Made by a program: the position numbers and the translations under genes. The notes below the pieces were generated by a model, which was not told where the DNA came from, did not search any database, and was given only the letters and a program-made list of their open reading frames with translations. DNA of 24,043 nt from a virus, in the IMG/VR virus record IMGVR_UViG_3300031658_000126, positions 1 through 24,043 of that record. One strand, written 5' to 3'. Of the stretch, positions 6,057 through 24,043 are shown in pieces; position 1 is the stretch's first letter; the number at the start of each line of letters is the position of its first letter.

Positions 6057-6069
6057 AATGTAATGTTCC

Positions 6070-7173: not shown

Positions 7174-7175
7174 GG

Positions 7176-8354: not shown

Positions 8355-8355
8355 T

Positions 8356-8742: not shown

Positions 8743-9128
8743 TACCTACGACCTCTTGATGTGTGACAACTAGTATGACAAGAGCTATGACATAGTAAAG
8801 CCGAAATAGATCTATTAGTGATACGAGACTCGATTTGGTCTACTGTTCTTTGCATAACACTATTAATAGAGTCAATAACATCTTGACTGTACATACGACT
8901 TCCTGTGTATATTCCAGCATCCAAATAGTTATTATAAAGTGAGTTAGCCGCACCTGTATATTCAAAGCGTTGGTCAAAGTTACCTGTAGCTGTAGGTCCT
9001 GCTAGAGTCTGTGACACCGTTTGTAATACATATGCAGTAACAGTAAACGTCATCGTTTTATCAAAGGTTCTTAATTGACTCCCAGCCTGAGACTGTAGAC
9101 TTGTGTTATTTTGAGCATAGGTCGGCAT
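8742..9128 (-). CDS. Small protein with C-terminal (Cys-His-x-Ser)3-RGRR tail, paralogue 1; candidate radical SAM substrate
   Basis: 128 aa, the same length as its downstream paralogue. It starts at the ATG at 9128; its 3' neighbour begins within its own stop (TAATG). The N-terminus (MPTYAQNNTSLQSQAGSQ) differs from the paralogue. The middle aligns through LRTFDKT, FEYTGAANSLYNNYLDAGI and YSQD, followed by a likely helix up to RITNRSISALL. Residues 113-128 are identical to the paralogue's tail, yet most codons there differ. It follows two collagen-like fibre genes, which suggests a tail or fibre-associated protein expressed late. Whether the tail is crosslinked, carries a metal or is left unmodified cannot be told from sequence. 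Confidence 0.9.
   Translation of the reverse strand: MPTYAQNNTSLQSQAGSQLRTFDKTMTFTVTAYVLQTVSQTLAGPTATGNFDQRFEYTGAANSLYNNYLDAGIYTGSRMYSQDVIDSINSVMQRTVDQIESRITNRSISALLCHSSCHTSCHTSRGRR
8752..8757 (-). promoter_or_regulatory. Ribosome binding site inside the CHxS tail codons (for the gene starting at 8742)
   Basis: AAGAGG on the minus strand, nine bases before the ATG at 8742. It lies within the Ser-Arg-Gly codons of the upstream gene's conserved tail, so one sequence serves as both coding sequence and ribosome site. Confidence 0.6.
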
Positions 9129-10202
9129 TTATACTTTAACCTCAACTAGCCCTTCACCATCCTCTAGTGCCACACCCACGAAGTTCAAGAAGTTCATGGG
9201 CATTGCGGCAGTCGTATCAGCTGGAAGTGCTTTACATTTACCATTATCATCTGCTACTATATAGTCACCTTTTTGGGCGGTGCCATTTATCTTACAAGGG
9301 ATACGTCCTTTAAGCGCAATGAAAGGCCATAGAGGATCCTCCATGTTATCTTCATTAACGTTCATTCGAACACCTGGACGTGTAGAGATAACACCAGCGA
9401 TAGGCATACCCTTTTTGTATAGAGTTACCTCTTTTTCGCCACCAACAGCCAACAGATCTCCATGCTCATATCCTTTATCGGCTAAGTATTTCTCCGCTAA
9501 ATCCGACCAGTTTGCAGACGTTGCTGTACCATTAAATGTACCATCATTAGCAATATATGATACATTGGTGGCATTTCTTCTAAACTGAACAATTCTATTT
9601 GAAGATTGGTCTGAAGTAATATACCATCTATTTGAGTGATATTGGATTTTACCTTTTGTGCCTGGGTCACCAGTCCAGTTAGATACAGAATTGGAGAACA
9701 AACCACCGTTGGTGATATCAAGCTCACCACCACCAAAAGCACCAACTTCGCCTTTTTGACCTTTAGAACCAGTTCCACCAGTTCCACCAGTACTACCTTT
9801 AGCTCCAGTAGCACCAACTTCGCCTTTTTGACCCTTTGCGCCAGTGACGCCAACTTCGCCTTTTTGACCCTTTTGACCCTTGGCTCCAGTAGCACCAATC
9901 TCGCCCTTTTGACCTTTGGCACCAGTTCCACCAGTTCCACCAACTTCGCCTTTTTGACCCTTTTGACCCTTGGCTCCAGTAGCACCCTTTTGTCCAACCT
10001 CACCCTTCTGGCCTTTTGCACCAGTGTTGCCAGTCTGTCCCTTTTGGCCCTTTTCGCCCTTTTGACCTTTTGCGCCAGTCGGAGCATCGGTAAAGGTAGT
10101 GGCTCTCCACACACCTTTTGCACTTTCAAATGTCCATGTGACATTGTTAGCGGTGTGGGTCGTGCCATTAGATGGCGATGATGGGAAATTAATTGCCGCC
10201 AT
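9129..10202 (-). CDS. Collagen-like phage tail fibre protein (357 aa)
   Basis: The ATG at 10202 follows the upstream stop by three bases, with AGGAGG upstream. Residues 1-42 carry the INFPSSPSNGTTH ... VTWTFES-KGVW block seen at the start of many phage fibre and virion proteins. Residues 43-156 are 38 unbroken Gly-X-Y triplets built from GQKGQKGE, GAK and GxT units, almost without proline. The C-terminal part has SANWSDLAEKYLADKGYE-GDL, GMPIAGVISTRPGVRMN and KGDYIVADDNGKC blocks, which resemble the C-terminal head of other phage fibres (from memory). A trimeric collagen-like rod ending in a compact tip is the likely shape. The next gene's ATG immediately follows this gene's upstream neighbour in the same tight style, consistent with one transcript. 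Receptor binding is plausible but unproven. Confidence 0.9.
   Translation of the reverse strand: MAAINFPSSPSNGTTHTANNVTWTFESAKGVWRATTFTDAPTGAKGQKGEKGQKGQTGNTGAKGQKGEVGQKGATGAKGQKGQKGEVGGTGGTGAKGQKGEIGATGAKGQKGQKGEVGVTGAKGQKGEVGATGAKGSTGGTGGTGSKGQKGEVGAFGGGELDITNGGLFSNSVSNWTGDPGTKGKIQYHSNRWYITSDQSSNRIVQFRRNATNVSYIANDGTFNGTATSANWSDLAEKYLADKGYEHGDLLAVGGEKEVTLYKKGMPIAGVISTRPGVRMNVNEDNMEDPLWPFIALKGRIPCKINGTAQKGDYIVADDNGKCKALPADTTAAMPMNFLNFVGVALEDGEGLVEVKV
9735..10076 (-). repeat. Collagen-like Gly-X-Y repeat tract in the 357-aa fibre
   Basis: Encodes 38 consecutive Gly-X-Y triplets. At DNA level the units are short degenerate tandem repeats, with longer identical stretches recurring (for example near 9856 and 9947), which could recombine with each other or with the tract at 10635-10991. 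Confidence 0.9.
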
Positions 10203-10205
10203 GGA

Positions 10206-11936
10206 TTATGCGCCTCCTGCGCCATATAGAGTCTTCAGTGCAGTTCCGCCTGAGTTGTAAATAACAAAGGATACGACAGATTTTAATTCATTTGAGCCAA
10301 CAGCATCATTTGCTAATTTAACTTGGGTTACGGAATTAGATGCCAAATGAATGGCATCTATAGAACCATTAGTATAATGTTCAGAATTTACTGCGTTATC
10401 AGCCAGTTTAGCTGAAGTTACGGCATCAGGAGCAAGTTTAGCTGTAGTTACGGCACCACTAGCAAGTTTAGCTGTAGAAATAGCACCATCAGAAACAACC
10501 GAATTATTAAATTGCACCCATTGACTAGATGTACCATCATCGTAGTAGATATATAGGGATCCTGTTTCATCGTCCCACCACAAGTCACCGTCTACTGCAC
10601 TACCTGGTGCCGTGGTGTTTGTAATGGCTTCGTTGCCTTCACCCTTTTGGCCTTGAGTACCAGTTCCGCCCTTTTGACCAACTTCACCCTTTTGACCCTT
10701 GTCTCCAGTTTGTCCTTTTTGGCCTTTAACACCAGACGCACCGTTACCATCAGCACCAATTTCACCCTTTTGGCCTTTTTGACCCGTGGTTCCAGTTTGG
10801 CCTTTTTGACCCTTGGCTCCGTTAGTTCCAGCTTCGCCTTTTTGACCCTTGTCTCCAGCACCACCAGTAGAACCCTTTACGCCAACTTCACCTTTTTGGC
10901 CTTTTGATCCGTTAGCTCCACCTTGGCCTTTTTGACCCTTGGTTCCATCACCACCTACACCACCAGTCTGTCCCTTTTGGCCTTTTTGACCTGCGAGACC
11001 TGCGTTGGTAATGGTGTGTTTTTCCCATGTGCCAGCGGACACATCGAATACAGGAATAATATCCGTTCCTACCGCATCAGTACCTGTTGCGAATGCTGTT
11101 AAAGCAGTACCAACATTAGCCGCATCTGTGACATCAGCATTAGATTCCACATTGTCTAGCTTACCACCGTCCGTCGAAACATCTCTTCCATCAACAGTAC
11201 CTGTTACAGTAATGTTTCTAATGCCAGAAATGTCACCGCTATCATCTTTCGAGATAACCGTACCAGATGTTGGCAAAGTAAGTGCAGTTGTTCCGCCTGT
11301 AGTAAGTGTCGTTGCATACGCACCTGATGTCGTAAACGAACCACCAAATGCTAAGTTGCCCAATGCACTTAATGTTCTATTGGCATTGCCAACATCGAAA
11401 GTTAGTGTTCTATCAGCACTTGCATTTACAGAACTGTTAGCGGCAAGTATTAGTTCATATGAAGCAACAGTAGTATCTCTAAGAGAGAATGTACTAATAT
11501 CTGTAATAGATCCGCCAATTGCACCGATACCAGTAATGCTTGGTGTTGTAAGCGTCTTGTTAGTAAAAGTTTCTGTACCAGTAAGTGTTGCAAAGGAATT
11601 GCCGCCACTGAGTGCGGCGTTCCACTGACCAATATTACCAGTCAGTGAGTTGTTTGTTAGGTTAATACTTTTGTTAGTAAAAGTTTGAGTGCCACTTAAT
11701 GTAGCCGCAACTGCCGAGTCTAATCTTAGTAAGACATCAGCATCGTTAGTTCCTGAGTTAAGTACAGTAATGCCAGCATCAGACCCTTTAGGGCTAATGG
11801 TGCCAACGAAGTCACCCATCGTGCCAGAGTCCATAGCAATGTTAGTGTCTCTGATAATAGCAGTAACTGCCGCAGAGTCAACAAGTGCCTGTAGACCTAG
11901 ACTGATGTTTAGATGATCACTTAGTTTAACAACCAT
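10206..11936 (-). CDS. Collagen-like phage tail fibre/virion protein (576 aa)
   Basis: It starts at the ATG at 11936 with AAGGGA upstream, 17 bases after the previous stop. The N-terminal part has LNSGTNDADVLLRLDSA and repeated GTxTFTNK-L/I motifs, typical of marine phage fibre or virion proteins (from memory). Residues about 316-434 are a collagen-like tract of 39 Gly-X-Y triplets with one short break (a GN pair after GAD). It is followed by VDGDLWWDDETGSLYIYYDD, a common phage virion block, then degenerate repeats of the form AVTTAKLA, and a hydrophobic C-terminus ending GAGGA. It is probably a trimeric rod protein of the tail. Its collagen units are very similar to those of the next gene, so the two may co-assemble or exchange segments. 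Confidence 0.9.
   Translation of the reverse strand: MVVKLSDHLNISLGLQALVDSAAVTAIIRDTNIAMDSGTMGDFVGTISPKGSDAGITVLNSGTNDADVLLRLDSAVAATLSGTQTFTNKSINLTNNSLTGNIGQWNAALSGGNSFATLTGTETFTNKTLTTPSITGIGAIGGSITDISTFSLRDTTVASYELILAANSSVNASADRTLTFDVGNANRTLSALGNLAFGGSFTTSGAYATTLTTGGTTALTLPTSGTVISKDDSGDISGIRNITVTGTVDGRDVSTDGGKLDNVESNADVTDAANVGTALTAFATGTDAVGTDIIPVFDVSAGTWEKHTITNAGLAGQKGQKGQTGGVGGDGTKGQKGQGGANGSKGQKGEVGVKGSTGGAGDKGQKGEAGTNGAKGQKGQTGTTGQKGQKGEIGADGNGASGVKGQKGQTGDKGQKGEVGQKGGTGTQGQKGEGNEAITNTTAPGSAVDGDLWWDDETGSLYIYYDDGTSSQWVQFNNSVVSDGAISTAKLASGAVTTAKLAPDAVTSAKLADNAVNSEHYTNGSIDAIHLASNSVTQVKLANDAVGSNELKSVVSFVIYNSGGTALKTLYGAGGA
10635..10991 (-). repeat. Collagen-like Gly-X-Y repeat tract in the 576-aa fibre
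   Basis: Encodes 39 Gly-X-Y triplets with one interruption (a two-residue GN unit). Units are GQKGQKGE, GDK, GST and similar, with almost no proline. The DNA is a degenerate tandem array that closely resembles the tract at 9735-10076. Confidence 0.9.
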
Positions 11937-11953
11937 TAGTTCTTATTCCCTTA

Positions 11954-14902
11954 TTAAGCCTGTGCTTCTGACCAGCGAAGCTGAATAGACGCTTTAACAT
12001 CACCCGATAGACAGAAAGCATTAATTGCTAGAATGTCAGGACCATCAGGGAATTTATAGTCTCCCCCAAGAGGAGCACCTGATAGTTCTTTCAAGTCTTC
12101 CAAGTCTAGTGTTGACACAACTGAATCTTGTCTACTTGTACCAGCAACGAATGAGAAAATACGTTCTCCTGGTAGCGCATAAGATCCACTAGTATATGTG
12201 ATACTACCTTTGTTTGCAACTTGAGCAAAGCTAGGCTGTCCACCCTCTGCCGTTCCTGATAAACCTTTCCATGTAGCATCTTGGAAGTTCTTAGGATTAA
12301 TGATCCCTTGAATATGAACCTCACCCGAAGAAGATGACCCACGACCACACACAACAGAACATTGCTTGAGGAGTAGCTGTGATCTATTGAGAAGATCCTT
12401 AGCCCCAAGTCTGCCCACTGATGAGTTAGACACAGAAGGTGCAAGTCTAAGTACAAACGATGTAATTGGAGTTGTCTGGATTTGGTCCGAACCAGTGTTA
12501 TGCGAGTTAGAGTAGTTAAAGATATAACCACGGTCAAAGTCAAAGTCTCCATCAATAACTAGGGCAGAACCCCAGTGAGATAGAGTTGGAGAACAAGTGT
12601 TTGAGATCTCAATAATGCCTGTCTTGTTAGCATGAGTAGCCGCCGAACCAGCAGTAAGGTTATTCGTTGTACCTTGCTGATATTGTGTTAGTGTTGCGGA
12701 TCTTGTACACCCTGTAAAGTTTCCAGGTCCTGTTGTTACTGATCTACCTGTATAGTTGATAATCTCGTTATCAATCATAATAGTACCATTATCATCAAAC
12801 TCGCCAAGTTCTAAAGCCCCAATGGTAGTGGTAGAGGCGTTGATCGTAGCAGTCAAGCTAGTGGTAGGCGAGTCATTCTCAATAGAATATCTCACTGGAA
12901 GGTTACCAGATCTCATAAATGCTTCGTTATTGATGTTGTTGTTCTTCATTCTATGAACCATAGTCCAATGACCATCAGGTCCTCTGATCATGAAGTCGAT
13001 GAATCCAGCACCATACCATGAGTATTGGAAACCAACCATCTGCATCTTATTAACATTTAGAGTGTGTAGTGATGGGTTGTGGACACCTGTTCCATTCATT
13101 CGATCCAAGTTCCAACGTGATTGTGGAACTTTGTGATCAGTAATCATATTCCCCTTAATACCCCCAGCAGTGATGCCACGATAATCGGGAGTAATATACA
13201 TAGTAGTATCAGAAGCGACTTGAGTAATAAAGTGGATCATACCACGAATAGCGATCCTGTCACCAGCTTTACACTGTTCTGTAAGTCTTGTGCTTAAACC
13301 TGTAACTTCACTGTTGTTGTTCGTCACACTAATCGTACCAGTGATCTGTTGGGTTGAAGTGCGCTTACAACAGTAAATTTGTTTACCATCAAACTCATAG
13401 AAAATTCCGTTAACATCATCAAACATACCTGCACGAACCGCAGATCCACGCCACTCAGTAACATACATTGTACATACACGTTTAAGAACTGGATCTGTAG
13501 CACCTAGTGTTTGAGTAGCCGCAACTCTATAGACATAGTCATCTACGATAGAGTCAACTACATAAGTTCCTTCATATCCAGACGTTTCAATACCCTCAAG
13601 ACGAATCTTAGCTCCTGGCTGTAGACCATGGTCAATTTCATCTGTACCGATAGTGATCAATGACCCTACTGTAGTACCAGCCGCAGAAATGCTTCTTACG
13701 TCATAGTTTGGTGCTAAGAGAGTACCTGTTGAGAACAAGAAGCCCTTACCAGACTGATAGCGGAAATAACGTTTACTAACACGAACAACCGAAGCCGCAT
13801 ATGTCGGTGTCTTAGTCTGTAGAATAACACCACCATCTGACGGTCTGTGTAGAATTGTAGCGTTAGAAAGAGCATACAGTGTAATGTTTGATGGGCTTGC
13901 AACAACTGCTCCAGTACGTGCAGTGTATGTTATTGAAGTAAGACTTGGGGTTGACTTGATAAAGAACGGACCAGAAGCCTCTTCTTTATTAGTACCACTT
14001 GCCGCAATAGCGTGAATATTTGTTCCTGGAATAAGTCCGTGTGGATTGGCAAAGTTTAGAGTTATAATACTTGGGTTTGCACCATTTGATGATGCCGAAG
14101 TGACTGGAATAGATGCACCTGCGTAAATACCACCAACTCTTGTTAATGCTTCTTCTGTGAATAACGATTGACCGTTTGATGTACCAACAATACCACGTGC
14201 ATAATATTTAAGCCTTGTACTGCTAACAATTGTTTCCACAATGAATGAACCATCACCACGAGAGAAACCAGCCACCGCAGAATTTAAGCCAGTTACATTA
14301 ACAACACTACCAACAGCAAGTTCGTGAGCGGATCCAAAGGTAATTGTAATTAACGAGTTCGAAGACGAACCTGTATTATAGTCTGTCGTAACTGCCGTTG
14401 TTGCAATATCAATACCTTCGTTCTGATACACAGAAGGATACCCCTTAACAGTACCATACCCAGCCCATTTAGTAGGCTGTAGTCCGTACTCAAAGTCGGC
14501 ATCAATCATTGATTCTGGAAGAGATACACGCATACGTTCAATAGCGTCTGTCCCAAATGCATATGGTCTTACGACCACATCACCCTGTGGATCTTCTACA
14601 AAGATTTGTAGCGCATCCGTTGTCGCCATACCCGCACTACTTTTGGCTAAAGTAATGGTTGTGTAGCCATTCTCTCTTTCCATGATGTGAGGCCAATGTC
14701 CAGAAGCCCCTGTGTTCTCTGAAGTGATCGTGGTTGTTGTTCCTGCATAGTCTGTGCTTGCGAAGTTGTAAAGAACTACGTTGTCCGTGACGTTTGTGAT
14801 AATTAGAATTTGATCTAAAGCGTATGTACCCGCAATTTCGACGGTGCCTGCACCACCATTGCCTGGAGTAAATACATAATCACGTATAAGTTGTTTTCCC
14901 AT
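11954..14902 (-). CDS. Large phage virion-like protein (982 aa)
   Basis: The largest gene in the window. Its ATG at 14902 has AGGA upstream and lies 11 bases after the previous stop. The sequence is beta-rich with Ser/Thr/Gly/Asn repeats and no membrane segment. An N-terminal block (YALDQILIITNVTDNVVLYNF, about residues 28-48, split by turns) and several duplicated modules such as NPSIITLNFANPHGLIPG and SLITITFGSAHELAVGS suggest tandem beta domains. Other blocks include YGLQPTKWAGYGTVKGYPS and VGFQYSWYGAGFIDFMIRG. I recall similar large structural proteins next to fibre genes in marine T4-like phages, but cannot assign a T4 gene number. A baseplate or fibre-hub role is a reasonable guess. A possible internal late promoter lies about 140 bases upstream. 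Confidence 0.88.
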   Translation of the reverse strand: MGKQLIRDYVFTPGNGGAGTVEIAGTYALDQILIITNVTDNVVLYNFASTDYAGTTTTITSENTGASGHWPHIMERENGYTTITLAKSSAGMATTDALQIFVEDPQGDVVVRPYAFGTDAIERMRVSLPESMIDADFEYGLQPTKWAGYGTVKGYPSVYQNEGIDIATTAVTTDYNTGSSSNSLITITFGSAHELAVGSVVNVTGLNSAVAGFSRGDGSFIVETIVSSTRLKYYARGIVGTSNGQSLFTEEALTRVGGIYAGASIPVTSASSNGANPSIITLNFANPHGLIPGTNIHAIAASGTNKEEASGPFFIKSTPSLTSITYTARTGAVVASPSNITLYALSNATILHRPSDGGVILQTKTPTYAASVVRVSKRYFRYQSGKGFLFSTGTLLAPNYDVRSISAAGTTVGSLITIGTDEIDHGLQPGAKIRLEGIETSGYEGTYVVDSIVDDYVYRVAATQTLGATDPVLKRVCTMYVTEWRGSAVRAGMFDDVNGIFYEFDGKQIYCCKRTSTQQITGTISVTNNNSEVTGLSTRLTEQCKAGDRIAIRGMIHFITQVASDTTMYITPDYRGITAGGIKGNMITDHKVPQSRWNLDRMNGTGVHNPSLHTLNVNKMQMVGFQYSWYGAGFIDFMIRGPDGHWTMVHRMKNNNINNEAFMRSGNLPVRYSIENDSPTTSLTATINASTTTIGALELGEFDDNGTIMIDNEIINYTGRSVTTGPGNFTGCTRSATLTQYQQGTTNNLTAGSAATHANKTGIIEISNTCSPTLSHWGSALVIDGDFDFDRGYIFNYSNSHNTGSDQIQTTPITSFVLRLAPSVSNSSVGRLGAKDLLNRSQLLLKQCSVVCGRGSSSSGEVHIQGIINPKNFQDATWKGLSGTAEGGQPSFAQVANKGSITYTSGSYALPGERIFSFVAGTSRQDSVVSTLDLEDLKELSGAPLGGDYKFPDGPDILAINAFCLSGDVKASIQLRWSEAQA

Positions 14903-14913
14903 TGTCTATCCTA

Positions 14914-17232
14914 TTATCCTAAAGCAATTGCATATGCTATGGCGTTACTGTTAAGCGTGTCTGAATCTGCGTTAACACCTGCGGCACCAGTAAGTCCCTG
15001 TTCGCCACGCTGTCCGATTGCCGCATATACGTTCCATGTGTTATTTATAAAGATAAAATCAACGGTGTTTTGTCCAAGATCTAATCTGAAATTGTCTGCT
15101 ACACCCTCAATAGTATTACCGTTCCTAGCAACATCTAAGTAGTTTGTTGCGTTCCAGTTAGCAATATCTATAAACCTAATAGTGTTCCCTGTTACGGGGT
15201 TAGAAGGAAGTGTTACCGTAAACGCACCACCTGATGTGTCAATTGCTAGTCTATCTCCAGCGACTGCGTTATAGTTAGCAGTCTTAACGCTGTAGTTGCT
15301 TTGGAATGCCGAGAAGTCGGAGTCAAATCCTAAGTAAGATCCACGAAGTGCACCGAAGTTCCACGTTCCTAGTTCAAAACTACTGTGACCTACATTGATT
15401 ACGTTATCTGGTACTGATGAATCTAATCCGTCTTGTATAAGATTTTCGAAAGCATAGAACTCGCCATTAGACGCATCCCTGATAAATCCAGCTCTTCTAA
15501 TAGTAGTTCCGCCGTCATCAGAGTATCTACCCACAAGACCAATATCAACGGCATCTCCAGTATTGGAGTCTGCAAGCTTGATCATTGCGTTGGTAACTCT
15601 AAGATCCGTTACCTGATTGTTAATCTGGTCACCACCAACAACAAGATTACCAGATACGTTTAGGTTACCTGAGATTGTAGATCCACCTGCGAATGTAACA
15701 ACTGAAGATGTACTAACATCCTGACCAATTGAGATTACGCCGTTTGATGAATTGAGTGTGACACCTGTGCCACCTGAGAAGTGTGCTCTAGCATCTGCCG
15801 CAACAGGACCTTGATAAGTGACAACACCTGTGGTATTGTTATAAGATAATGAACCATCTCCACCAGCGTCTGTTACTGATACAGATCTTTTAGCATCTGA
15901 GTCTGCACGTGCTGTTGTGTAGTATAGATTACCACCTTCGCTCAGATCTGATGTGCTTCTTGCATCAAATGCTGAGTCTATATCTGAGTCGGCTCTTGAT
16001 TTCAAGTAGTATTTGTTACTACCTTCGCTCAAATCACCTGTGTTGTGGTTTGATATATCCGTTACTTGACCAGTAAGGTTACCAATGAAATTACCTTGGG
16101 CTTGTATGTTACCAGATGCGATAATCTCAGAACCACGAAGATCTCCCGATACACCAACACCACCTGTAACAACCAAAGCACCACTAGTCTTATTAGTAGA
16201 AGCTTGATTTGATGGGATAAGTACACGACCTTCTGAGTCGATAGAGAACATATCCGTACCAGTAGATAGATCGTAGTTGGCACCTACATCCTTTTTGATC
16301 TTAAAGTTTGTAGCATTACCCTCAAAGCCAATAACAAAGTCATTAGCATTCTGTACACCAGTTACACCAATACCATGATTGAACTGATCGTTCTTACCAA
16401 GAGATATGATTGTGTCTCTTGACGAGTCGCCACCAAAGTGATATACAGTATGGTTTGAGTCGCCAAAGTTTGCACCAGTATTAAAGGAAATGCCACTGTA
16501 TGCATGAGTATGTACTGTAGATTGATCCCCTGCACTATCACGCAATACGATTGATTGTAGGACGGGTGCGGTTAATGTTTTGTTGGTGAGGGTTTGTGTA
16601 GCAGTCTTAGTGACATAAGCTTTAGCAAGTAGATCAAGTTGAGCACTATCCATAACAGCAATAACACGTGCATCTGCACGAGCATTTGTATAGTATAGGT
16701 TTGACCCTTCAGCAAGATTTGAAGTTGTTTTGATAGCAAGTCTTGTATCAAAGTCGCTGTCTACTCTTGCTTCTGTATAATACTTGTTAGAACCTTCGGT
16801 AAGATTTGCTGTTGTCTTTGTATCCAAACGTGTGTCAAAGTCAGCATCTTTATATGTTGTTACACTAAACTGGCCTGTACTGGTGTTGAAGGATAAGTCT
16901 CCCCCAGCCGATAAGTGAGCAACAACATCTGCTTTTAGAGGACCTTGGTATGTGATAACACCTGTGGATGAGTTGTAACCAAGAGACCCATCTCCACCAT
17001 TATCAGTCACCGAGACTGCACCTCTAGCACCCGGTACTAGGGCGGATGTGATCTTACTATTAATAAGAGCTTCTGTAACAGCCGAGTCAAGTACTCTATT
17101 AACCTCATTGTTAGAAGCTTTGTAGTACAAATACCCATCTGCGTAGTTTACGGCTAATTCGCCGTATTCTAAATCAGAACTATCGGGAGTTCTGCCACTG
17201 ACAGAACTCTTCTTATGTATAAGTTTGACCAT
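14914..17232 (-). CDS. Repeat-rich phage tail fibre protein (772 aa)
   Basis: The ATG at 17232 has AAGGG upstream. The N-terminus (KLIHKKSSVSGRTPDSSDL, then EYGELAVNYADGYLYYK) is a common phage fibre opening. Two copies of SVTDxGGDGSLxYN-TGVxTYQGP and several of EGSNxYYTxARxDSDFDTR follow, interleaved with a TNKTLTAPVLQS block. The middle has SGNLNVSGNLVVGGD and a stretch on TNAMIKLADSNTGDAVDIGL. The C-terminus contains GDRLAIDTSGGAFTVTLPSNP, FRLDLGQNTVDFIFINNTWN and a short GEQGLTGAAG collagen-like piece. It is probably a beta-structured trimeric tail fibre. It is the third gene class in this block built from internal duplications. Confidence 0.9.
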   Translation of the reverse strand: MVKLIHKKSSVSGRTPDSSDLEYGELAVNYADGYLYYKASNNEVNRVLDSAVTEALINSKITSALVPGARGAVSVTDNGGDGSLGYNSSTGVITYQGPLKADVVAHLSAGGDLSFNTSTGQFSVTTYKDADFDTRLDTKTTANLTEGSNKYYTEARVDSDFDTRLAIKTTSNLAEGSNLYYTNARADARVIAVMDSAQLDLLAKAYVTKTATQTLTNKTLTAPVLQSIVLRDSAGDQSTVHTHAYSGISFNTGANFGDSNHTVYHFGGDSSRDTIISLGKNDQFNHGIGVTGVQNANDFVIGFEGNATNFKIKKDVGANYDLSTGTDMFSIDSEGRVLIPSNQASTNKTSGALVVTGGVGVSGDLRGSEIIASGNIQAQGNFIGNLTGQVTDISNHNTGDLSEGSNKYYLKSRADSDIDSAFDARSTSDLSEGGNLYYTTARADSDAKRSVSVTDAGGDGSLSYNNTTGVVTYQGPVAADARAHFSGGTGVTLNSSNGVISIGQDVSTSSVVTFAGGSTISGNLNVSGNLVVGGDQINNQVTDLRVTNAMIKLADSNTGDAVDIGLVGRYSDDGGTTIRRAGFIRDASNGEFYAFENLIQDGLDSSVPDNVINVGHSSFELGTWNFGALRGSYLGFDSDFSAFQSNYSVKTANYNAVAGDRLAIDTSGGAFTVTLPSNPVTGNTIRFIDIANWNATNYLDVARNGNTIEGVADNFRLDLGQNTVDFIFINNTWNVYAAIGQRGEQGLTGAAGVNADSDTLNSNAIAYAIALG
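15042..15049 (-). promoter_or_regulatory. Possible internal T4-type late promoter
   Basis: TATAAATA on the minus strand, inside the end of the 772-aa fibre gene and about 140 bases before the start at 14902. It is an exact match to the T4 late core but could be chance, since the same bases encode the FIFINN stretch. Confidence 0.35.
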
Positions 17233-17299
17233 TATGACCCTTAAGAAAGCTTAAACCGAACTAAAAAGCCCAGCGAATTGTATTATATCATAGTACTAT
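17233..17299 (-). other. 67-base gap between structural genes with a palindrome and a TATAAT-like box
   Basis: The only gap of note inside the leftward block. A perfect 6-bp inverted repeat (GTACTA, two bases, TAGTAC; 17293-17306) spans the stop of the upstream gene, and TATAAT lies just after it on the minus strand. No clear -35 box and no terminator hairpin with a T-run were seen. It could be a weak promoter or a protein-binding site. Confidence 0.35.
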
Positions 17300-18844
17300 T
17301 TAGTACGTCCCACCATTGACTTCGTGAATAATAACGTCACCTGCGCCATCAACAGTAAAGTAATCTGTATTAAACTTAGCAACACCTAGATTAGATGAAC
17401 TTGCTATTTCTGCCGTAATAGTTAATGTCCCTGCGCCATCATTGTAAGTAAGGTCAATAGCCTCACCTGCAAGTAGCAAGTTATTCATTCTGTCATCTAT
17501 ACGTTCATCGAACCCAATGCCATCGATTTTAAAGTCATTACCCGTTAAAAGGTTTACATGTCTATTAAAATCCCAAGCCGCAGTAGCTGAGTTATATTTG
17601 ATAGATGCACCTGCGGTATCAACTTGGATACCAGCGCCAGTTGCCGCCGCACTATCGGCAGAGCCTTGAGCAACAATAACAAGTTTGTCTGTGATAGACA
17701 GGTCTGTTGAGTTGATTATTGTTTGCGTACCATCAACCTGTAGGTCACCACGAATGATAACTTTACCAGTGACTTCCATGTTATTACCTGGATCAATCCA
17801 CATGTAACCATTGGCAGAGTCAGTCGTTGATATAATATTACCATTCAAACGAACATTGTCAACATCTAATTGTGTAAGACCTGCGAGATCTGTAACTGTT
17901 GCACCTGGGTTTAAGTTAGTCGTACCAAGTACGGATGCCGCAACTGTGATAGCACCGTTGCTATTACCGAAGTCTGTAGCATCAAAAGATGCAATACCAA
18001 GGTTTGTATCAGTAGCAACTTCTGCACCAACTGTAACAATTCCACCAGAAGTAGTAATGTCAATGCCTTCCATACCTTTAAAGGCAAGGGTAGCAGATCC
18101 AAGAGCAACTGAACCAGAAGAAGCACTGTCACCAGTAATGTTTAGCGTTGTGGAAATAGCATTACTTCCAGCAGAAGTCAAACGACCTTGATCATCAACT
18201 GTGAATACTGGAATAGCTGTTGCAGTACCGTATGAGCCTGCTGTAACTGATGTGTCGTCTAGTCTAAGAGTTACTTGATTGTTAGTAACCGAAGATGTTA
18301 ATCCAGTTCCACCAGAGATAAGAAGTGTATCAGAAGCAAGATTGACTTCATCTGAGTCAGTGCCATCTGCTATTGTTAGGGAAGCCGCAGAGTTATAAGA
18401 ATCTACATAGCCCTTAGTCGCCGCATCAGCCGAATCAACCGGGGTAGCAACGTCTTCGATCTTATTGAAGTTAAGAACAACAGATCCTGTGCCATTCGGT
18501 TCTAGGAAGATGTCTCCATTAGTATCTGTAGCAGTGATGGTATTACCATCTATTGTCAGATTGTCAACAAGTAATTCGTTGATCTTTTTGTTTGCGTCTA
18601 CAAGCAATGCAGAGTTAGCAGTTAACGTACCTTTAGCATGATCTAATTGATCAGTAAAGAACTTACCACCAATAACCTCATGGTTTGCGGCATCTCCGCT
18701 TGTTTCTGTTCCATGCCCTAGATAGAGACGATCACCACCATTGGCACCGTTATCTGCTAAGGATGAGTAGGCTAGTTCGCCTGCGGCCAACGTGGCTGGA
18801 TTACCTGACGTGGCACTGCGCTTAATTCTAATTATTGATGCCAT
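17300..18844 (-). CDS. Phage virion/tail fibre-like protein (514 aa)
   Basis: The ATG at 18844 overlaps the upstream stop in TGATG, with GGAGG about ten bases before it. The opening MASIIRIKRSATSGNPATLA, followed by AGELAYSSLADNG-NGGDRLYLGHG, is a familiar phage fibre/virion N-terminus. The body carries repeated LNGNIISTTDSA / IDGNTITATDTNGDIFLEP units, GDLQVDGTQTIINS and a SIKYNSATAAWDFNRH block. It is rich in Asp, Gly, Ser, Thr and short beta strands, with no membrane segment. It ends in NGGTY, close to the NGGQY end of the 86-aa protein encoded just upstream. A tail or baseplate appendage protein is likely; a precise role is not assignable. Confidence 0.88.
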   Translation of the reverse strand: MASIIRIKRSATSGNPATLAAGELAYSSLADNGANGGDRLYLGHGTETSGDAANHEVIGGKFFTDQLDHAKGTLTANSALLVDANKKINELLVDNLTIDGNTITATDTNGDIFLEPNGTGSVVLNFNKIEDVATPVDSADAATKGYVDSYNSAASLTIADGTDSDEVNLASDTLLISGGTGLTSSVTNNQVTLRLDDTSVTAGSYGTATAIPVFTVDDQGRLTSAGSNAISTTLNITGDSASSGSVALGSATLAFKGMEGIDITTSGGIVTVGAEVATDTNLGIASFDATDFGNSNGAITVAASVLGTTNLNPGATVTDLAGLTQLDVDNVRLNGNIISTTDSANGYMWIDPGNNMEVTGKVIIRGDLQVDGTQTIINSTDLSITDKLVIVAQGSADSAAATGAGIQVDTAGASIKYNSATAAWDFNRHVNLLTGNDFKIDGIGFDERIDDRMNNLLLAGEAIDLTYNDGAGTLTITAEIASSSNLGVAKFNTDYFTVDGAGDVIIHEVNGGTY

Positions 18845-19104
18845 CAGTATTGGCCTCCGTTAAAGTTTGTATCTGTTAAATCGAGTTTGGCAACGAATTT
18901 ACCAACATCTTCATCATAAACTAAAACAGAACCTGTGACAGCCCCGGTGGTATCAACCCCACCTAAATTTGATACGTTAAAGGCACCAGAAGTAATCCTC
19001 TTTACAGGAGTACCTACGACAACTTTAGCAACCCTTACTCCGCTCGCACCAACTTTAATGGCTTTAGTAACCCTTGCTCCACTCACACCAACTTTAATAG
19101 CCAT
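18844..19104 (-). CDS. Small virion-associated-like protein with duplicated N-terminus (86 aa)
   Basis: The ATG at 19104 has AAGG upstream (overlapping the previous stop) and lies six bases after that stop. The first 27 residues are a tandem duplication, AIKVGVSGARVTK then AIKVGASGVRVAK. The rest contains TSGAFNVSNLGGVDTTGAV and a LVYDEDVGKFVAKLDLTDT block of the type seen in phage virion proteins, ending FNGGQY. There is no cysteine, signal peptide or membrane segment. Co-translation with the 514-aa protein (TGATG junction) and the shared NGGxY C-terminus suggest that the two belong to the same structure. I do not recognise a specific family. Confidence 0.82.
   Translation of the reverse strand: MAIKVGVSGARVTKAIKVGASGVRVAKVVVGTPVKRITSGAFNVSNLGGVDTTGAVTGSVLVYDEDVGKFVAKLDLTDTNFNGGQY
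19024..19101 (-). repeat. 39-bp tandem repeat, two copies, in the 86-aa gene
   Basis: Two in-frame 39-base units encode AIKVGVSGARVTK and AIKVGASGVRVAK. The copies have diverged at several positions, so the duplication is not brand new. Confidence 0.75.
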
Positions 19105-19110
19105 TATTTT

Positions 19111-19464
19111 CTACCTTGTTACTGATGGAGATACAACAATGCGTCCTTCAAGAACACGTTCTATAACGACATTGGAGTCGCTATCCACAAAGCTCATCTC
19201 CACATCATATACATATTTGCCTGCTCTTAGAGAATCTGTCTGTGTGTTCGTTAAAGACAGCGTAAGTATTCCATCCGAAGACGGTGTTGCTATAGCTGTA
19301 CTAAAGATTTGAGTATCTGCACTGTCGGAGTTAAAGTTCTTCTTCATCTTGGCGTTTATAGTGTGGTTAGCCAGATCCTTGGCACCGCCCGTAGGTTCAA
19401 TCAGGTGAAGCTGAATAGCGACATCAGCACCCTGATCAATAGTAAATGTTTCTTCTTGTGCCAT
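19111..19464 (-). CDS. Small beta-rich phage virion protein, first gene of the late block (117 aa)
   Basis: It starts at the ATG at 19464. No strong ribosome site is visible, and other ATGs just upstream are out of frame. The sequence FTIDQGADVAIQLHLIEPTGG, followed by KDLANHTINAKMKKNF, SSDGILTLSLTNTQTDSLRAGKY, a YDVEMSFVDSD block and ERVLEGRIVVSPSVTR, reads as an immunoglobulin-like or BppU-like beta sandwich of the kind found in phage baseplate and fibre attachment proteins (from memory; split here by commas). It lies 37 bases from one late promoter and about 98 from another, so it heads the structural transcript. Confidence 0.85.
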   Translation of the reverse strand: MAQEETFTIDQGADVAIQLHLIEPTGGAKDLANHTINAKMKKNFNSDSADTQIFSTAIATPSSDGILTLSLTNTQTDSLRAGKYVYDVEMSFVDSDSNVVIERVLEGRIVVSPSVTR

Positions 19465-19500
19465 GCATCATACCCATAAATTGCTATGTTTTGTTACTTC

Positions 19501-19508
19501 TATTTATA
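19501..19508 (-). promoter_or_regulatory. T4-type late promoter, proximal
   Basis: TATAAATA on the minus strand, an exact match to the T4 late consensus that is read by polymerase carrying gp55 on sliding-clamp-activated DNA. It sits 37 bases before the first gene of the leftward block. Confidence 0.75.
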
Positions 19509-19561
19509 CAGATTGTATCGTGATAGTTTCACTAACACTGCATAACTCATAACGTTTCTTC

Positions 19562-19569
19562 TATTTATA
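19562..19569 (-). promoter_or_regulatory. T4-type late promoter, distal
   Basis: A second exact TATAAATA on the minus strand, 61 bases upstream of the first and in the same context (GTATAAATAG). Tandem late promoters would raise expression of the structural and radical SAM genes. It lies next to the rightward -35 box. Confidence 0.7.
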
Positions 19570-19581
19570 CATTTTAGGGAC

Positions 19582-19610
19582 TTGACAAAAATGACGAATC
19601 TGGGTATAAT
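19582..19610 (+). promoter_or_regulatory. Strong sigma70 promoter for the rightward radical SAM/QueC-like operon
   Basis: TTGACA (19582-19587), a 17-base spacer and TATAAT (19605-19610) match the bacterial sigma70 consensus exactly. The leader to the ATG at 19690 is about 73 bases. It implies early or host-polymerase-driven expression, opposite in direction and probably in time to the late block. Phage genes with promoters this good are usually early. Confidence 0.88.
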
Positions 19611-19689
19611 AAAGGATCAGCTTCGAGAATAGGGGAGAGGGTATTAGCAACATACTATATACTGTATAAGTTTAGATATAGGACGTAAA

Positions 19690-21213
19690 ATGACTACCTT
19701 AAGTAAAGAAGAACATAAGGATACTGAAGTAGGCACTAACATGTCCAGAGGTGGACCTGGAGATAAGTCTCTACCCGGAGATTATGAAACAGATGCGTGG
19801 TTTGAGTTGGTGTCTGATGATACAAAAGAGGAATTAGATAATAACCCTATATCTATAACAGCACAGGCGAAGAATAAAGACCTTTGGTTTTGCTCTATTC
19901 CGTTTAGTCAAGTGTATTCGGAAATTGATGGGCAGTATCAAGCATGTTGTTTTGGTGCACCTTCTGGAGTCATGGTTGACCAGATGTCGTTGGTTGATTG
20001 GATGGAAACTAGCGACTACATGAATAACATCCGTAAAGAAATGTTAGATCCCAACTCAGACTTTAAATCAGTTGAAAAGACTTGTGTGCGATGTAGGAGT
20101 GATGAGAGAAGATACGGTAGATCTCGCAGAACTAATTGTATGAAAATACATACTAACGATCCACAGCATTGGGATGGCATTGAACGCACTGCTAGGTTTT
20201 TTAAGGAGACAGGTGAGTACATTATTGATGAAAGGATATTGGAAGTTCAATTAAAAGTCTTTGGTTCTGAATGCAACCTAGATTGTCATATGTGCTTCCA
20301 CGCCAATTCATCCATGCGTTGGGATATGGCTAAAAACAAAGAAGTGTGGAATGAAAAGATTTGGGGTGCAGGTCCAACCGATAAGTCAAGAATTGACCAT
20401 ATTAATAATTCGTTTAAGAATAGAGCATCTAAAGATATTCTTAAGCAGATCTGTGAACTTAGTCCTCATATAAGAAGCATTAAGATCATTGGTGGAGAAC
20501 CTTTGATTATGAAGAGACAGTATGAGTTGCTTGATATGCTTATAGAGAGTGGCGATTCAAAGGACATCTTTCTCAAATTTCAAACCAACTTTACAAAACT
20601 TCAAGCTGGAAAGCACAAGTTTGTTAATTATATTCCACACTTTGGTAACATTGCTATGGTAGCATCTGTTGATGGTATTGGCACAAACATTGAGTATATG
20701 CGAAGAAGAACTGATTGGAAAGAGCTAGAAGGCAACATCGACATTTGTAATAAATTCCCTAATGTTGTTGTTGACTTTAATTCTTTAATCTCTTTCTTAA
20801 GCGTAATGCGTTTTGATGAAGTTATTGACTACTGTAAAGACAACGATAAGATCCATCAGATCAATTGGGCTATGATTGAAAAGCCAAAACACTTGAGAGT
20901 AAACAACCTACCATTCGCAATCAAGAACGATCTTATGGATAAGTATAAAGACTTTCCTGATATTCAACACGCTTTGAGCATGCCACCAGAGAATGATGTG
21001 GATATACAAGACCTATTTGAATATCTATTGAAGCAAGATGAGTCATATGTAGGCACTAAGTGGGAACTGCACTTGTTTGATGTTTATCCCGAACTGAGAC
21101 CTTACTACGAACCAAGAGAGAGAACACCAGAGATGGAAGCTATGTTCAAACGTTGGGAAGCAGATGAGAAGGCGGCTAGTGAAGAATTGGTAAAGGGAAG
21201 TATAGATCCATGA
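19690..21213 (+). CDS. Twitch-type radical SAM protein, first of two paralogues (507 aa)
   Basis: The ATG at 19690 has AGGA upstream. After a hydrophilic N-terminus (residues 1-60), a SPASM/twitch-like half comes first: C68, C86-C87 and C132-x2-C135 (WFCSIPF, QACC, CVRC). The radical SAM half follows: C195, C199, C202 (CNLDCHMC), GGEPL at 268-272 and ASVDGIG. The C-terminus is charged. NCBI-style annotation calls such phage proteins 'twitch domain-containing radical SAM protein' (from memory). The auxiliary-type cysteines lie before the SAM cluster, unlike in the leftward enzymes. The stop overlaps the next ATG (ATGA), so the two are co-translated. Substrate is unknown. Confidence 0.92.
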   Translation: MTTLSKEEHKDTEVGTNMSRGGPGDKSLPGDYETDAWFELVSDDTKEELDNNPISITAQAKNKDLWFCSIPFSQVYSEIDGQYQACCFGAPSGVMVDQMSLVDWMETSDYMNNIRKEMLDPNSDFKSVEKTCVRCRSDERRYGRSRRTNCMKIHTNDPQHWDGIERTARFFKETGEYIIDERILEVQLKVFGSECNLDCHMCFHANSSMRWDMAKNKEVWNEKIWGAGPTDKSRIDHINNSFKNRASKDILKQICELSPHIRSIKIIGGEPLIMKRQYELLDMLIESGDSKDIFLKFQTNFTKLQAGKHKFVNYIPHFGNIAMVASVDGIGTNIEYMRRRTDWKELEGNIDICNKFPNVVVDFNSLISFLSVMRFDEVIDYCKDNDKIHQINWAMIEKPKHLRVNNLPFAIKNDLMDKYKDFPDIQHALSMPPENDVDIQDLFEYLLKQDESYVGTKWELHLFDVYPELRPYYEPRERTPEMEAMFKRWEADEKAASEELVKGSIDP

Positions 21214-22427
21214 TCATTGATAACGACACTTGGTGGTGTCCTAGATTCTTTGATCATATTTACACCCACACTAGTGGACAATATGCGCCTTGTTGTATAG
21301 GGCAAGAATCTCCAGAATCAAATGTAAGTAGCACAACCCCTCTTGAATGGTATAGAGGAAGTGAGATGAATACATTGCGAGACGCTTCTCTTAATCCTCA
21401 CGAAGAAAAAAGTAAAATGGTTCTTGACCGTTGGTGTCATAGGTGCATCAAACAAGAAAATGATTACGGATCTTCTTATAGAATGCGCCATATAGAACAA
21501 ATTGAACGTGAAGAGGCTACAAGGAATCTCCAACATCCTGCTAAAAGATCTACAACAGATTACATAAACACAGGAGAAGCCCCTTTACTAGAAGAACTTC
21601 TTCAAGTACAATTGCGAATGTTTGGTAACACGTGTAACCTAGATTGTTATATGTGTCAACCCCATGCGTCTTCCATAAGAGAACGTAGCGTTAAAGACTA
21701 TAATTATCATAAACACATTTCTTTTGATAATGGTCTTGATGTCAAACCGAAATACACTAGAGACATGTTAGACGGTTTTGATGATATAGCTATGGCAATA
21801 TCATGTGTGATACTTCAAGGCGGCGAACCGCTATATATCAAGAAACAATTCGAAATGTTAGATAGGTTGATAGAGCTTGGAGTCTCCGAAAATATCAGAA
21901 TAGAAATGAATAGTAACATGTCTGTATTGGGTGTGGGCAACTACAACATTATGGATTACGTTGATAAATTTAGAAACTTAGGTGTAAGTGCTTCAATTGA
22001 TGGTTATGGCTTATTTAACGATTATATCAGAAGACGCTCTAAATGGAATGATGTGGTTTCTAATATGGTTACAATGAATGCGAAAGATAATATACATGTG
22101 GATATATTCTCCACTCAGAGTATACTAAGTGTTTTGAGACACGACCAGTTGCTTGCTTGGGCTTCTGAGAATAGTTATGACGTAACAACATTCATCGTGG
22201 ACGACCCTCAAGAACTAAACCCAAGGCACCTACCAGATCCCATCAAAGAAGAGTTGATAGCTAAATATCCTAACGACCATGATTTGATCAAGTGCTTATC
22301 CCAAAAGGGAGATCCGAAATCATTCGTCAATGCGTTAGACTATATAATCCAAACAGACAAGGTATATGATACGGATGTTTTCGAAGTATATCCAGAATTA
22401 AAATCCTACTATGAGGAATTGAAATGA
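21210..22427 (+). CDS. Twitch-type radical SAM protein, second paralogue (405 aa)
   Basis: It begins in the ATGA overlap with the preceding paralogue and lacks that protein's 60-residue N-terminal extension and its C-terminal tail. The order is the same: C10 (WWCPRFFDHIY), C28-C29 and C76-x2-C79, then C142, C146, C149 (CNLDCYMC), GGEPL at 204-208 and ASIDGYGLFNDYIRRR. Both end in a conserved ...VYPEL-[RK]-[PS]YYE block. A pair of such enzymes suggests a complex or successive modifications on one target. The gene is coupled to the QueC-like gene by another ATGA overlap. Confidence 0.92.
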   Translation: MIIDNDTWWCPRFFDHIYTHTSGQYAPCCIGQESPESNVSSTTPLEWYRGSEMNTLRDASLNPHEEKSKMVLDRWCHRCIKQENDYGSSYRMRHIEQIEREEATRNLQHPAKRSTTDYINTGEAPLLEELLQVQLRMFGNTCNLDCYMCQPHASSIRERSVKDYNYHKHISFDNGLDVKPKYTRDMLDGFDDIAMAISCVILQGGEPLYIKKQFEMLDRLIELGVSENIRIEMNSNMSVLGVGNYNIMDYVDKFRNLGVSASIDGYGLFNDYIRRRSKWNDVVSNMVTMNAKDNIHVDIFSTQSILSVLRHDQLLAWASENSYDVTTFIVDDPQELNPRHLPDPIKEELIAKYPNDHDLIKCLSQKGDPKSFVNALDYIIQTDKVYDTDVFEVYPELKSYYEELK

Positions 22428-23161
22428 TATTCGAATATGGCAATCAAACACTTGATCTAAAGCCGCCAAAGCATGTACTCTTATCGGTATCAGGTGGTCT
22501 AGACTCTGCATGCCTTTTATATCTTCTATGCACACACTTTCCAGATGTTAGGATAACACCAGTAACTGGTCAAGACGTAACTGCCCCAATGGACTTCGAA
22601 TGTGCAATAGATGTTATTTCATTTTGCAGAGAGTTATTTCCAAATGCTAACATAGATGAGCATGAAACATATACATTTGATATTATGGATCCAGAGTGGA
22701 GAAAGTATGCCGCATCTAAACGTGAAGAAGAAATGGTTACAATGCCAGATGGGACAAGGGTAGATAGGTGTACTGGACTTTCTGGTCTAGTTAAAGTTCT
22801 TATGAAACGTGATGCTGAGATGAAGATGGTAGAAAAGTATCCAGAAGGCACCTTCCTCACTGGAATGACAGCCAACCCACCCATCGGTGAGATGAAGAAA
22901 TATGGCTTTTATGATGTTGCCGAAAGACGTAGAGACTCTAAAGATTTAGACCCTTGGTTTAATTATGGGAAAGTGTACCAACCTCTTGTCAATGTTGACA
23001 AAAAGTTTGTATCTGGCTTTTACTTTGAAAACAAATTAATGGACACGTTATACACATACACAAGCTCATGTGTTGGCAACTCGGATGAAACTGATGGGTA
23101 TACGGAAGGTTGTGGTGTGTGCTTCTGGTGTCATGAAAAGAAATGGGCATTTGAGCGTTGA
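22424..23161 (+). CDS. QueC-like PP-loop ATPase, first paralogue (245 aa)
   Basis: S23-G-G-L-D-S28 is the PP-loop that binds ATP and adenylates a substrate. C216-x13-C230-x2-C233-x2-C236 (CGVCFWC followed by HEKKWAFE) matches the C-terminal zinc site of QueC (7-cyano-7-deazaguanine synthase), and the length fits that family. QueC converts 7-carboxy-7-deazaguanine to preQ0. QueC-like proteins also occur in defence systems (QatC, CBASS Cap9). The internal TGMTANPP, GFYDVAERR and LMDTLYTYTSSCVG blocks recur in the next gene. No other queuosine gene (QueD, QueF, QueE) is in the window, so another acceptor is possible. The ATG overlaps the upstream stop (ATGA). Confidence 0.88.
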   Translation: MIFEYGNQTLDLKPPKHVLLSVSGGLDSACLLYLLCTHFPDVRITPVTGQDVTAPMDFECAIDVISFCRELFPNANIDEHETYTFDIMDPEWRKYAASKREEEMVTMPDGTRVDRCTGLSGLVKVLMKRDAEMKMVEKYPEGTFLTGMTANPPIGEMKKYGFYDVAERRRDSKDLDPWFNYGKVYQPLVNVDKKFVSGFYFENKLMDTLYTYTSSCVGNSDETDGYTEGCGVCFWCHEKKWAFER

Positions 23162-23884
23162 ATGAGAATTGCACATGCCAACCAGACGATAGAGTTTTTT
23201 ACGGATCTTCCTAAGATTCCTAAACACATCGCATTGTCTATATCTGGGGGTCTCGATTCGGCTTCCCTTTTATTCCTAATATGTAAACACTATCCACAAA
23301 TTAAAGTGTCTCCTATAATCGGGATAGATGCTTATGCCAAGTTTGATGCGGAGTGTGCATTTGACACTATTGAGTGGATGAAAGATAGATTTCCTGATCA
23401 TAACATACTAGAAAATCAATCATTTACCTTTGATCATACAGATCCATATTGGATGAAGAAAGCTCAAGATCTACACGATGTGGGTGTAGCGAAAACACTA
23501 ATGCCTCAAGGAACCTCTAAGAACCTACAAATGAGAGAAGGACTTGCACGTATTGAGGATGAAATAAAGTACGAATGTCTTGTTATGGGAACAACTGCAA
23601 ACCCCCCTGATGATTATATGAAGAAGCATGGGTTCTATGATAAAGCCGAACCTATCAGAAATGAACCGCATAATAGAAAGACCTTTGTAAGAGGTCTATA
23701 TACCCCATACATAAATGTAAACAAGAGATTTGTGGCTGGTGTGTACAAAGATAACGGTTTAATGGATGAGCTATATCCATACACAAGTTCGTGTGTGGGG
23801 ATGCCAAACGAGACAGACTATGGAACCGTTGCTTGTGGAACTTGCTTCTGGTGTCATGAAAAGAAATGGGGATTTGAGTGTTAA
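23162..23884 (+). CDS. QueC-like PP-loop ATPase, second paralogue (240 aa)
   Basis: The ATG directly follows the previous stop. S28-G-G-L-D-S33 is the PP-loop, and C211-x13-C225-x2-C228-x2-C231 (CGTCFWCHEKKWGFE) is the QueC-type zinc site. It aligns along its length with the preceding protein (DAECAFDTI, FTFDHTDPYW, TANPPDDYMKK, GFYDKAEP, NVNKRFVAGVY, TSSCVG), so it is a tandem duplicate that has diverged in the central segment. Both copies keep their key residues, so neither looks decayed. It may form a heterodimer with the first copy or use a different acceptor. The next gene starts within its end. Confidence 0.88.
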   Translation: MRIAHANQTIEFFTDLPKIPKHIALSISGGLDSASLLFLICKHYPQIKVSPIIGIDAYAKFDAECAFDTIEWMKDRFPDHNILENQSFTFDHTDPYWMKKAQDLHDVGVAKTLMPQGTSKNLQMREGLARIEDEIKYECLVMGTTANPPDDYMKKHGFYDKAEPIRNEPHNRKTFVRGLYTPYINVNKRFVAGVYKDNGLMDELYPYTSSCVGMPNETDYGTVACGTCFWCHEKKWGFEC

Positions 23885-24043
23885 ACATTGTCGCAACTGG
23901 TAAACCATCGGATGGCCTATTCTTCTACAGTTGTGAACATTACTTCAAGCTTGCATCTCTAGGAATTGATGTGCAATTGATTGTGTTTACTCACAGACAT
24001 CATACCGAAGATGACTATACAAACAATATAGCACAGAAGTATA
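23878..24043 (+). CDS. Start of an unidentified gene, 3' end outside window
   Basis: GTG at 23878 opens a frame that overlaps the QueC-like gene by seven bases and runs to the window edge (55 codons). The start reads VLNIVATGKPSDGLFFYSC, then EHYFKLASLGIDVQLIVFTHR. A first beta strand, a glycine-containing loop and LGIDVQLIVFTH would fit the N-terminal half of a GT-B glycosyltransferase, but this is only a shape-based guess. There is no ATG near the start, and the ribosome site (GGGG region) is modest. Position and overlap suggest that it belongs to the rightward operon. Confidence 0.5.
   Translation, partial: MLNIVATGKPSDGLFFYSCEHYFKLASLGIDVQLIVFTHRHHTEDDYTNNIAQKY

Follow-up and report, generated by a model that had tools for sequence, protein, structure and literature searches.

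The virus sequence analyzed here, a stretch of 24,043 nucleotides (positions 1 to 24,043 of IMG/VR record IMGVR_UViG_3300031658_000126; hereafter, the window), ends in an operon that encodes two twitch radical S-adenosylmethionine (SAM) enzymes, two QueC-like PP-loop proteins and the beginning of a further gene. We consider it highly probable that the radical SAM and QueC-like enzymes form a coupled pair with a role other than the synthesis of preQ0 (7-cyano-7-deazaguanine). The pair is real and conserved, sits in a phage island of a known type and is itself apparently undescribed. A preliminary description, made from the sequence alone, had proposed this coupled operon, and its genes, positions and junctions were recovered in our analysis: the first two junctions are 4-base ATGA overlaps, the third and fourth genes abut with an overlap of 0, the last junction overlaps by 7 bases, and the fifth gene starts with a GTG at position 23878 and runs past the window end. 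The operon is beyond chance: homologs with the same partners recur in dozens of viral contigs and are under selective constraint.

The coupling of the two enzymes was evaluated from both sides. In 50 non-redundant loci collected from the QueC-like side, a twitch radical SAM gene adjoined or was fused to the QueC-like gene in 33 and lay within five genes of it in 38; the reciprocal search from the radical SAM side gave 35 loci, with a QueC-like gene adjoining or fused in 16 and within five genes in 24. Fusions of the QueC-like and radical SAM proteins were represented by nine distinct sequences of 708-778 amino acids, several of which were found in more than one assembly, and the possibility that they are assembly errors was therefore rejected. 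On the phylogenetic tree, well-supported branches force at least three changes between the fused and split states. Fusion is the strongest evidence for a common substrate, which the twitch radical SAM and QueC-like enzymes would share. The earlier suggestion that the products should act together is supported by these protein fusions in other viruses. A structural model of a fusion protein showed a predicted local distance difference test score (pLDDT) of 92.3 and a predicted template modeling score of 0.71; because of the latter value, the placing of the two halves was not interpreted. In one further locus (L215, 6932-9805, on contig G426), a twitch radical SAM domain is fused to a carbamoyltransferase in a protein of 957 amino acids. 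We also observed a 458-residue protein (L009, 12264-13640; also in L011 and L012) in which a QueC-like domain is joined to a different radical SAM domain, of the c3 type. The literature searched on the radical SAM and QueC-like pairing contained no description of a QueC-like partner, in agreement with the previous remark that the combination was undescribed.

Both radical SAM proteins are full members of the NF033640 family (twitch domain-containing radical SAM), with scores above the cut-off of 170 bits (Table 1). The definition of the twitch domain comes from BtrN, an enzyme acting on an aminocyclitol. In the first enzyme (rSAM1), the CxxxCxxC motif occupies residues 195-202 (20272-20295), and it is present in 42/42 relatives. 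Four N-terminal cysteines of rSAM1 (68, 86, 132 and 135) are conserved and invariant in the family alignment, and they probably bind an auxiliary cluster; a PDB profile search with this alignment returned no match. As the preliminary description had stated, these enzymes are not QueE-like: the NCBIfam QueE model gave 12 bits against a cut-off of 300, and rSAM1 matched a QueE-like PHROG with an E value of only 0.0028.

The two QueC-like proteins, QC1 and QC2, share 45% identity. The SGGLDS motif lies at residues 23-28 in QC1 (22490-22507) and at residues 28-33 in QC2 (23243-23260), and the zinc ribbon cysteines of QC1 span residues 216-236 (23069-23131). Since their scores for PF06508 are only borderline (Table 1; cut-off 22 bits), "QueC-like" fits these proteins, whereas "QueC" does not; the NCBIfam QueC equivalog model gave 15 bits against a cut-off of 150. 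The family is nearly confined to viruses. Scans of two collections, keyed on short conserved peptides and which more distant relatives could escape, found 103 relatives in IMG/VR and one match (L082) among 84,980 bacterial and archaeal species genomes; searches with three different queries found none among 50,697 phage records. A profile scan of 398 genomes from the phylum of L082 yielded, besides L082 itself, only short and weak PP-loop matches. The neighbors of L082, on contig C29 of a metagenome-assembled genome, almost all belong to module families, so a bacterial origin or host contamination was rejected, and L082 is likelier to be a mis-binned or integrated virus.

Conserved sites indicate what the family has retained and what it has lost. 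SGGxDS is invariant (52/52 members), and the zinc ribbon, with a cysteine 6-20 residues before CxxCxxC, is found in 49/52, mostly with a spacing of 13 rather than 8 as in QueC. The family has its own signature, comprising GxTxNPP (exact in 28/52), AExx[RKN] (38/52), an invariant lysine and a C-terminal CxxCFWCxEKxWxF. According to published motif definitions (PMC13329287), none of the 52 members carries the QueC motifs YxQxHxxE, VPxRN or YPDC, the Cap9 motifs Y/FxQ(x)5E or YxDC, or the QatC motif CGxCxxRR. The WbpG motifs SGGxDSxY and CxxC(x)6CxC are likewise each found in 0/52. A close tie to QatC and Cap9, which were invoked previously (background in PMC13279940 and PMC11996544), is not supported beyond the common fold, because the substrate motifs of both proteins are absent. 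In the AlphaFold2 model of QC1 (pLDDT 95.4), the nearest solved structures were Cap9 (Z 13.6 over 165 residues), the TilS-type protein MesJ (13.2), QueC (12.4), LarE (11.9) and QatC (11.5). The predicted fold is that of a PP-loop ligase or amidotransferase, with no finer assignment, and because Cap9 and the TilS-type protein are tied, the comparison was not used to infer function. Sequence evolution in the family is constrained, as indicated by its low ratios of nonsynonymous to synonymous polymorphism (pN/pS 0.25-0.36). For QC2 and its 85% identical copy in L007 (also in L008), the nonsynonymous and synonymous divergences were 0.08 and 0.25, a ratio of about 0.33.

A QueC fold, together with QueE-like genes in some relatives, could suggest that DNA or tRNA is modified through a preQ0/7-deazaguanine pathway. 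We searched 22 contigs of 38-160 kb for preQ0 genes; the completeness of these records is not established, and absence is accordingly suggestive. Strong QueE-like genes were found in three more distant relatives (G009, G011 and G021) and a fragment in G007, and FolE was found in one contig, G009. However, QueD was present in 0/22 contigs and TGT (PF01702) in 0/22, some of which may be fragments, with DpdA covered through the TGT model only. The operon itself contains no QueE or QueD. The 160-kb contig G001 represents a sibling of the window virus, the tail genes of the two sharing 92-98% identity; this contig gave no QueD, FolE or TGT match, and the QueE model gave only weak radical SAM matches in it. 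In addition, alanine mutants of the tyrosine or arginine in YxQxHxxE, VPxRN and YPDC inactivate Escherichia coli QueC (PMC13329287), and these motifs are missing from the family. Ordinary preQ0 synthesis was rejected for the window virus, given that no pathway was found in G001 and that the substrate motifs are absent, and we regard this explanation as highly improbable. The preliminary description had reported QueD and QueF to be absent; preQ0 genes were absent from the window and from G001, and a complete preQ0 pathway with DpdA, which it had named as the finding that would overturn its view, was not found, DpdA having been sought through the TGT model. Among the relatives, G009 (8000-24000; L086), L087 and L088 have an RNase H-like gene close to their QueE-like genes, with no QueD seen, and in G009, FolE and a gene of the c9 hydrolase family are close to QueE.

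The feature is real but larger than the five genes first described. IMG/VR contig 3300031602_000071 (L002) shares 7,569 bases with the window, with one mismatch, and extends beyond the window end; in it, the five genes are the first of 14 co-directional genes, and among the 13 junctions of this array, 12 overlap (4-55 bases) and one abuts. Besides these five (two twitch radical SAM genes, two QueC-like genes and c10), the array includes a DegT aminotransferase (274 bits). It also contains the c3 radical SAM gene with the small cysteine-containing partner c6 (a split radical SAM pair), the c5 radical SAM gene and c15, which is SGNH-like on the basis of a weak GDSL match in a relative. A NodU-type carbamoyltransferase (C-terminus, 227 bits), a fusion of c12 and c7 (glycosyltransferase-like and methyltransferase-like) and two GT8 glycosyltransferases complete the set. 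The c10 family, with a mean column identity of 60% in its alignment, had no Pfam or PHROG match and no significant PDB match. Judged by its gene content, the 14-gene run looks like a pathway for making and attaching a sugar, situated beside tail-fiber genes. At least three other module families were present in 37 of the 50 QueC-like loci.

The position of the pair within this module varies among viruses. The slot between the glycosyltransferase-like genes c14 and c12 holds the radical SAM and QueC-like genes, with or without c9, in 11 loci and is empty in three, while the cultured Pelagibacter phage Mosig (EXVC030M), whose module otherwise matches, has a nitroreductase there. In G001 and G005, close relatives of the window, and in G002 and G012, no twitch radical SAM gene was found in the whole contig, and the nitroreductase-like c2 precedes the QueC-like genes instead. 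Gene order thus presents the pair as a cassette that is swapped with nitroreductase genes. In the large contigs in which the pair lies away from glycan genes (G423, G425, G426 and G429), the carbamoyltransferase is still there, and three contigs without a QueC-like gene lack the carbamoyltransferase too. The c9 family has a weak isochorismatase-like reading; its best relevant PDB match (E 0.1) ranked below chance ubiquitin matches. Pelagimyophage host-recognition islands are known to contain GT8 genes and radical SAM cassettes (PMC7029224), and a T4-like genome with 12 radical SAM genes has been reported (PMC5332604). Features of such clusters were seen here in the tail fibers beside the window operon, the GT8 genes of L002 and the location of the module next to VrlC in Mosig.

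Other arrangements were noted in these islands. Mosig carries a second, oppositely transcribed block (L219; Mosig 51151-82644) of TauD-like, Asp/Arg hydroxylase, peroxiredoxin, FMN reductase, aminotransferase and desaturase genes, and L064 and L079 have similar families in the vicinity of their QueC-like genes. In the T4-like contigs L150-L167, a twitch radical SAM gene, the nitroreductase-like c2, c9 and a second radical SAM gene lie between genes for proteins of 208 and 142 amino acids, with no QueC-like gene nearby; QueC, c9 and radical SAM genes seem to occupy a similar position after a tail-tube gene in L014 and L045.

In our favored explanation, the five genes form the 5' part of a 14-gene operon with which a T4-like marine phage would build a decorated glycan and attach it, a building block of this glycan being made or tailored by the pair. 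The neighboring DegT, carbamoyltransferase, GT8 and methyltransferase genes suggest an amino- or carbamoyl-sugar product, so that the operon may produce an amino-, carbamoyl- and probably methylated glycan or glycan-like unit, destined for the tail fibers, the virion or the host surface. The twitch radical SAM and QueC-like enzymes would act as a two-enzyme cassette with a single substrate. With ATP bound at SGGxDS, the QueC-like protein would activate a carboxylate or similar carbonyl by adenylation and pass the group to an amine or ammonia, and the radical SAM enzyme would oxidize or rearrange the same molecule by radical chemistry. The sequences themselves show how the operon is laid out, which motifs are kept or lost, that the two enzymes recur side by side and are repeatedly fused, that they are swapped with nitroreductase genes and that their neighbors are of glycan type, while the reaction type is inferred from family chemistry. 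We place the chance that the glycan explanation is correct as a whole at about even. Where the preliminary description had left DNA, protein or glycan modification open, glycan is now favored over DNA because of the glycan-like context next to tail fibers.

Several observations weigh against this explanation. The core of QueC, c9 and twitch radical SAM genes stands amid T4 head and tail genes in fragments without glycan genes (L014, L045, L055 and L073), no nucleotide-sugar synthesis genes of its own were identified in the operon, and c10 and some glycosyltransferase-like genes have no assigned fold; moreover, the word "glycan" derives from the neighbors and not from the pair itself. Because of these fragments, protein modification was retained as the main alternative. 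Under it, the QueC-like enzyme would attach a small acid to a protein of the virion or the host, in the manner of Cap9 of type IV CBASS (cyclic-oligonucleotide-based antiphage signaling system), and the radical SAM enzyme would modify the peptide or the conjugated group. The rank of Cap9 as the top structural neighbor of QC1, with QatC nearby, is consistent with this, as are the resemblance of the radical SAM half to the folds of SkfB, CteB and BlsE, the location of the core directly after a tail-tube gene in L014 and L045, and the orientation of the operon facing tail-fiber genes. However, Cap9 is tied with MesJ, the Cap9 and QatC motifs are missing, and no conserved small substrate protein accompanies the pair, which leaves protein modification a serious but rather unlikely candidate. 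A small-molecule natural product or counter-defense metabolite, such as a modified nucleotide, rather than a glycan or protein, could account for the weak viperin-like matches of the radical SAM proteins (26 and 17 bits), the nitroreductase-like and weakly isochorismatase-like partners and the carbamoyltransferase. Nevertheless, the viperin matches cover only the core, and the island is rich in glycosyltransferases and adjoins tail fibers, making this explanation improbable. Broadly, a branch of the QueC superfamily specific to viruses, paired with or fused to a twitch radical SAM enzyme, may perform a two-step modification (a radical step and an ATP-dependent amide- or ligase-type step) that phages swap into and out of their host-recognition islands and that varies a surface glycan or virion protein, a proposal that we consider about as likely as not to be correct.

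Table 1. Coordinates of the operon and the adjoining structural genes in the window
Feature	Position	Strand	Basis
Twitch radical SAM enzyme 1 (rSAM1), 507 amino acids	19690..21213	+	NCBIfam NF033640, 270 bits
Twitch radical SAM enzyme 2, 405 amino acids, paralog of enzyme 1	21210..22427	+	NF033640, 252 bits; PF04055, 36 bits
QC1, QueC-like PP-loop protein, 245 amino acids	22424..23161	+	PF06508, 22.0 bits; AlphaFold2 model
QC2, QueC-like PP-loop protein, 240 amino acids	23162..23884	+	PF06508, 19.8 bits, just below cut-off
c10 family protein, start only, truncated by window end; 282 amino acids in L002	23878..24043	+	Conserved module family
Tail-fiber and virion structural genes, divergent from the operon	9129..19464	-	PHROGs: tail fiber, collagen-like, virion structural

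A second radical SAM locus is present in the window. Two paralogous proteins of 128 amino acids, with the C-terminal end CHSSCHTSCHTSRGRR, are encoded at 8356-9128 on the minus strand, just upstream of five paralogous radical SAM-type genes (CxxxCxGCF) and two unknowns (1016-8447, minus strand). The same gene order recurs in 13 further viral contigs, where the C-terminal CH[STNV]SCH[ST]SCH[ST]SRGRR is nearly unchanged while the remainder has diverged (40-92% identity). The 128-residue proteins look like a phage-encoded precursor or core peptide with its own radical SAM maturases, and this locus is arguably of equal interest to the main operon.

Conjugation of nucleobases to proteins has recently been recognized as an activity of QueC-type enzymes in anti-phage defense, and here the same scaffold appears on the phage side, in an almost exclusively viral family that has lost the known substrate residues and has a radical SAM enzyme fused on. 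If the pair indeed makes a modified sugar or protein group that is new, this would represent new enzyme chemistry from viruses that are abundant in the ocean, and it would be likely to alter what is recognized by host receptors, competing phages or defenses.

Comparison with known systems places the pair as follows. The radical SAM proteins are full members of NF033640, but are distinguished by their pairing or fusion with a PP-loop enzyme and, in a single case, with a carbamoyltransferase. With canonical QueC (PF06508), the family shares SGGxDS, the C-terminal CxxCxxC zinc ribbon and, in the profile alignment, a conserved lysine in the PxxxxxK segment, whereas it lacks the three substrate motifs and is not accompanied by queD or queE in the operon. 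Cap9 has the same PP-loop fold, a zinc ribbon and a similar size and is the best structural match; the window family differs in lacking the Cap9 substrate motifs, in its radical SAM partner and in being found in viruses. QatC, of the qatABCD defense system, shares the fold, and the canonical motifs for 7-carboxy-7-deazaguanine are lost in both, but the window proteins are about 245 rather than about 400 amino acids long, with no N- or C-terminal extensions and no CGxCxxRR. The WbpG-type N-sugar amidotransferases (PF06508 cluster 5) are likewise PP-loop enzymes and work in a glycan pathway, whereas the window family is smaller and lacks both WbpG motifs. Finally, the module families and their order are shared with the pelagimyophage host-recognition cluster, including that of Mosig, where they likewise adjoin VrlC and tail fibers, with nitroreductase genes in Mosig in place of the radical SAM/QueC cassette; as a cultured phage that carries the same module without the pair, Mosig provides a natural comparison.

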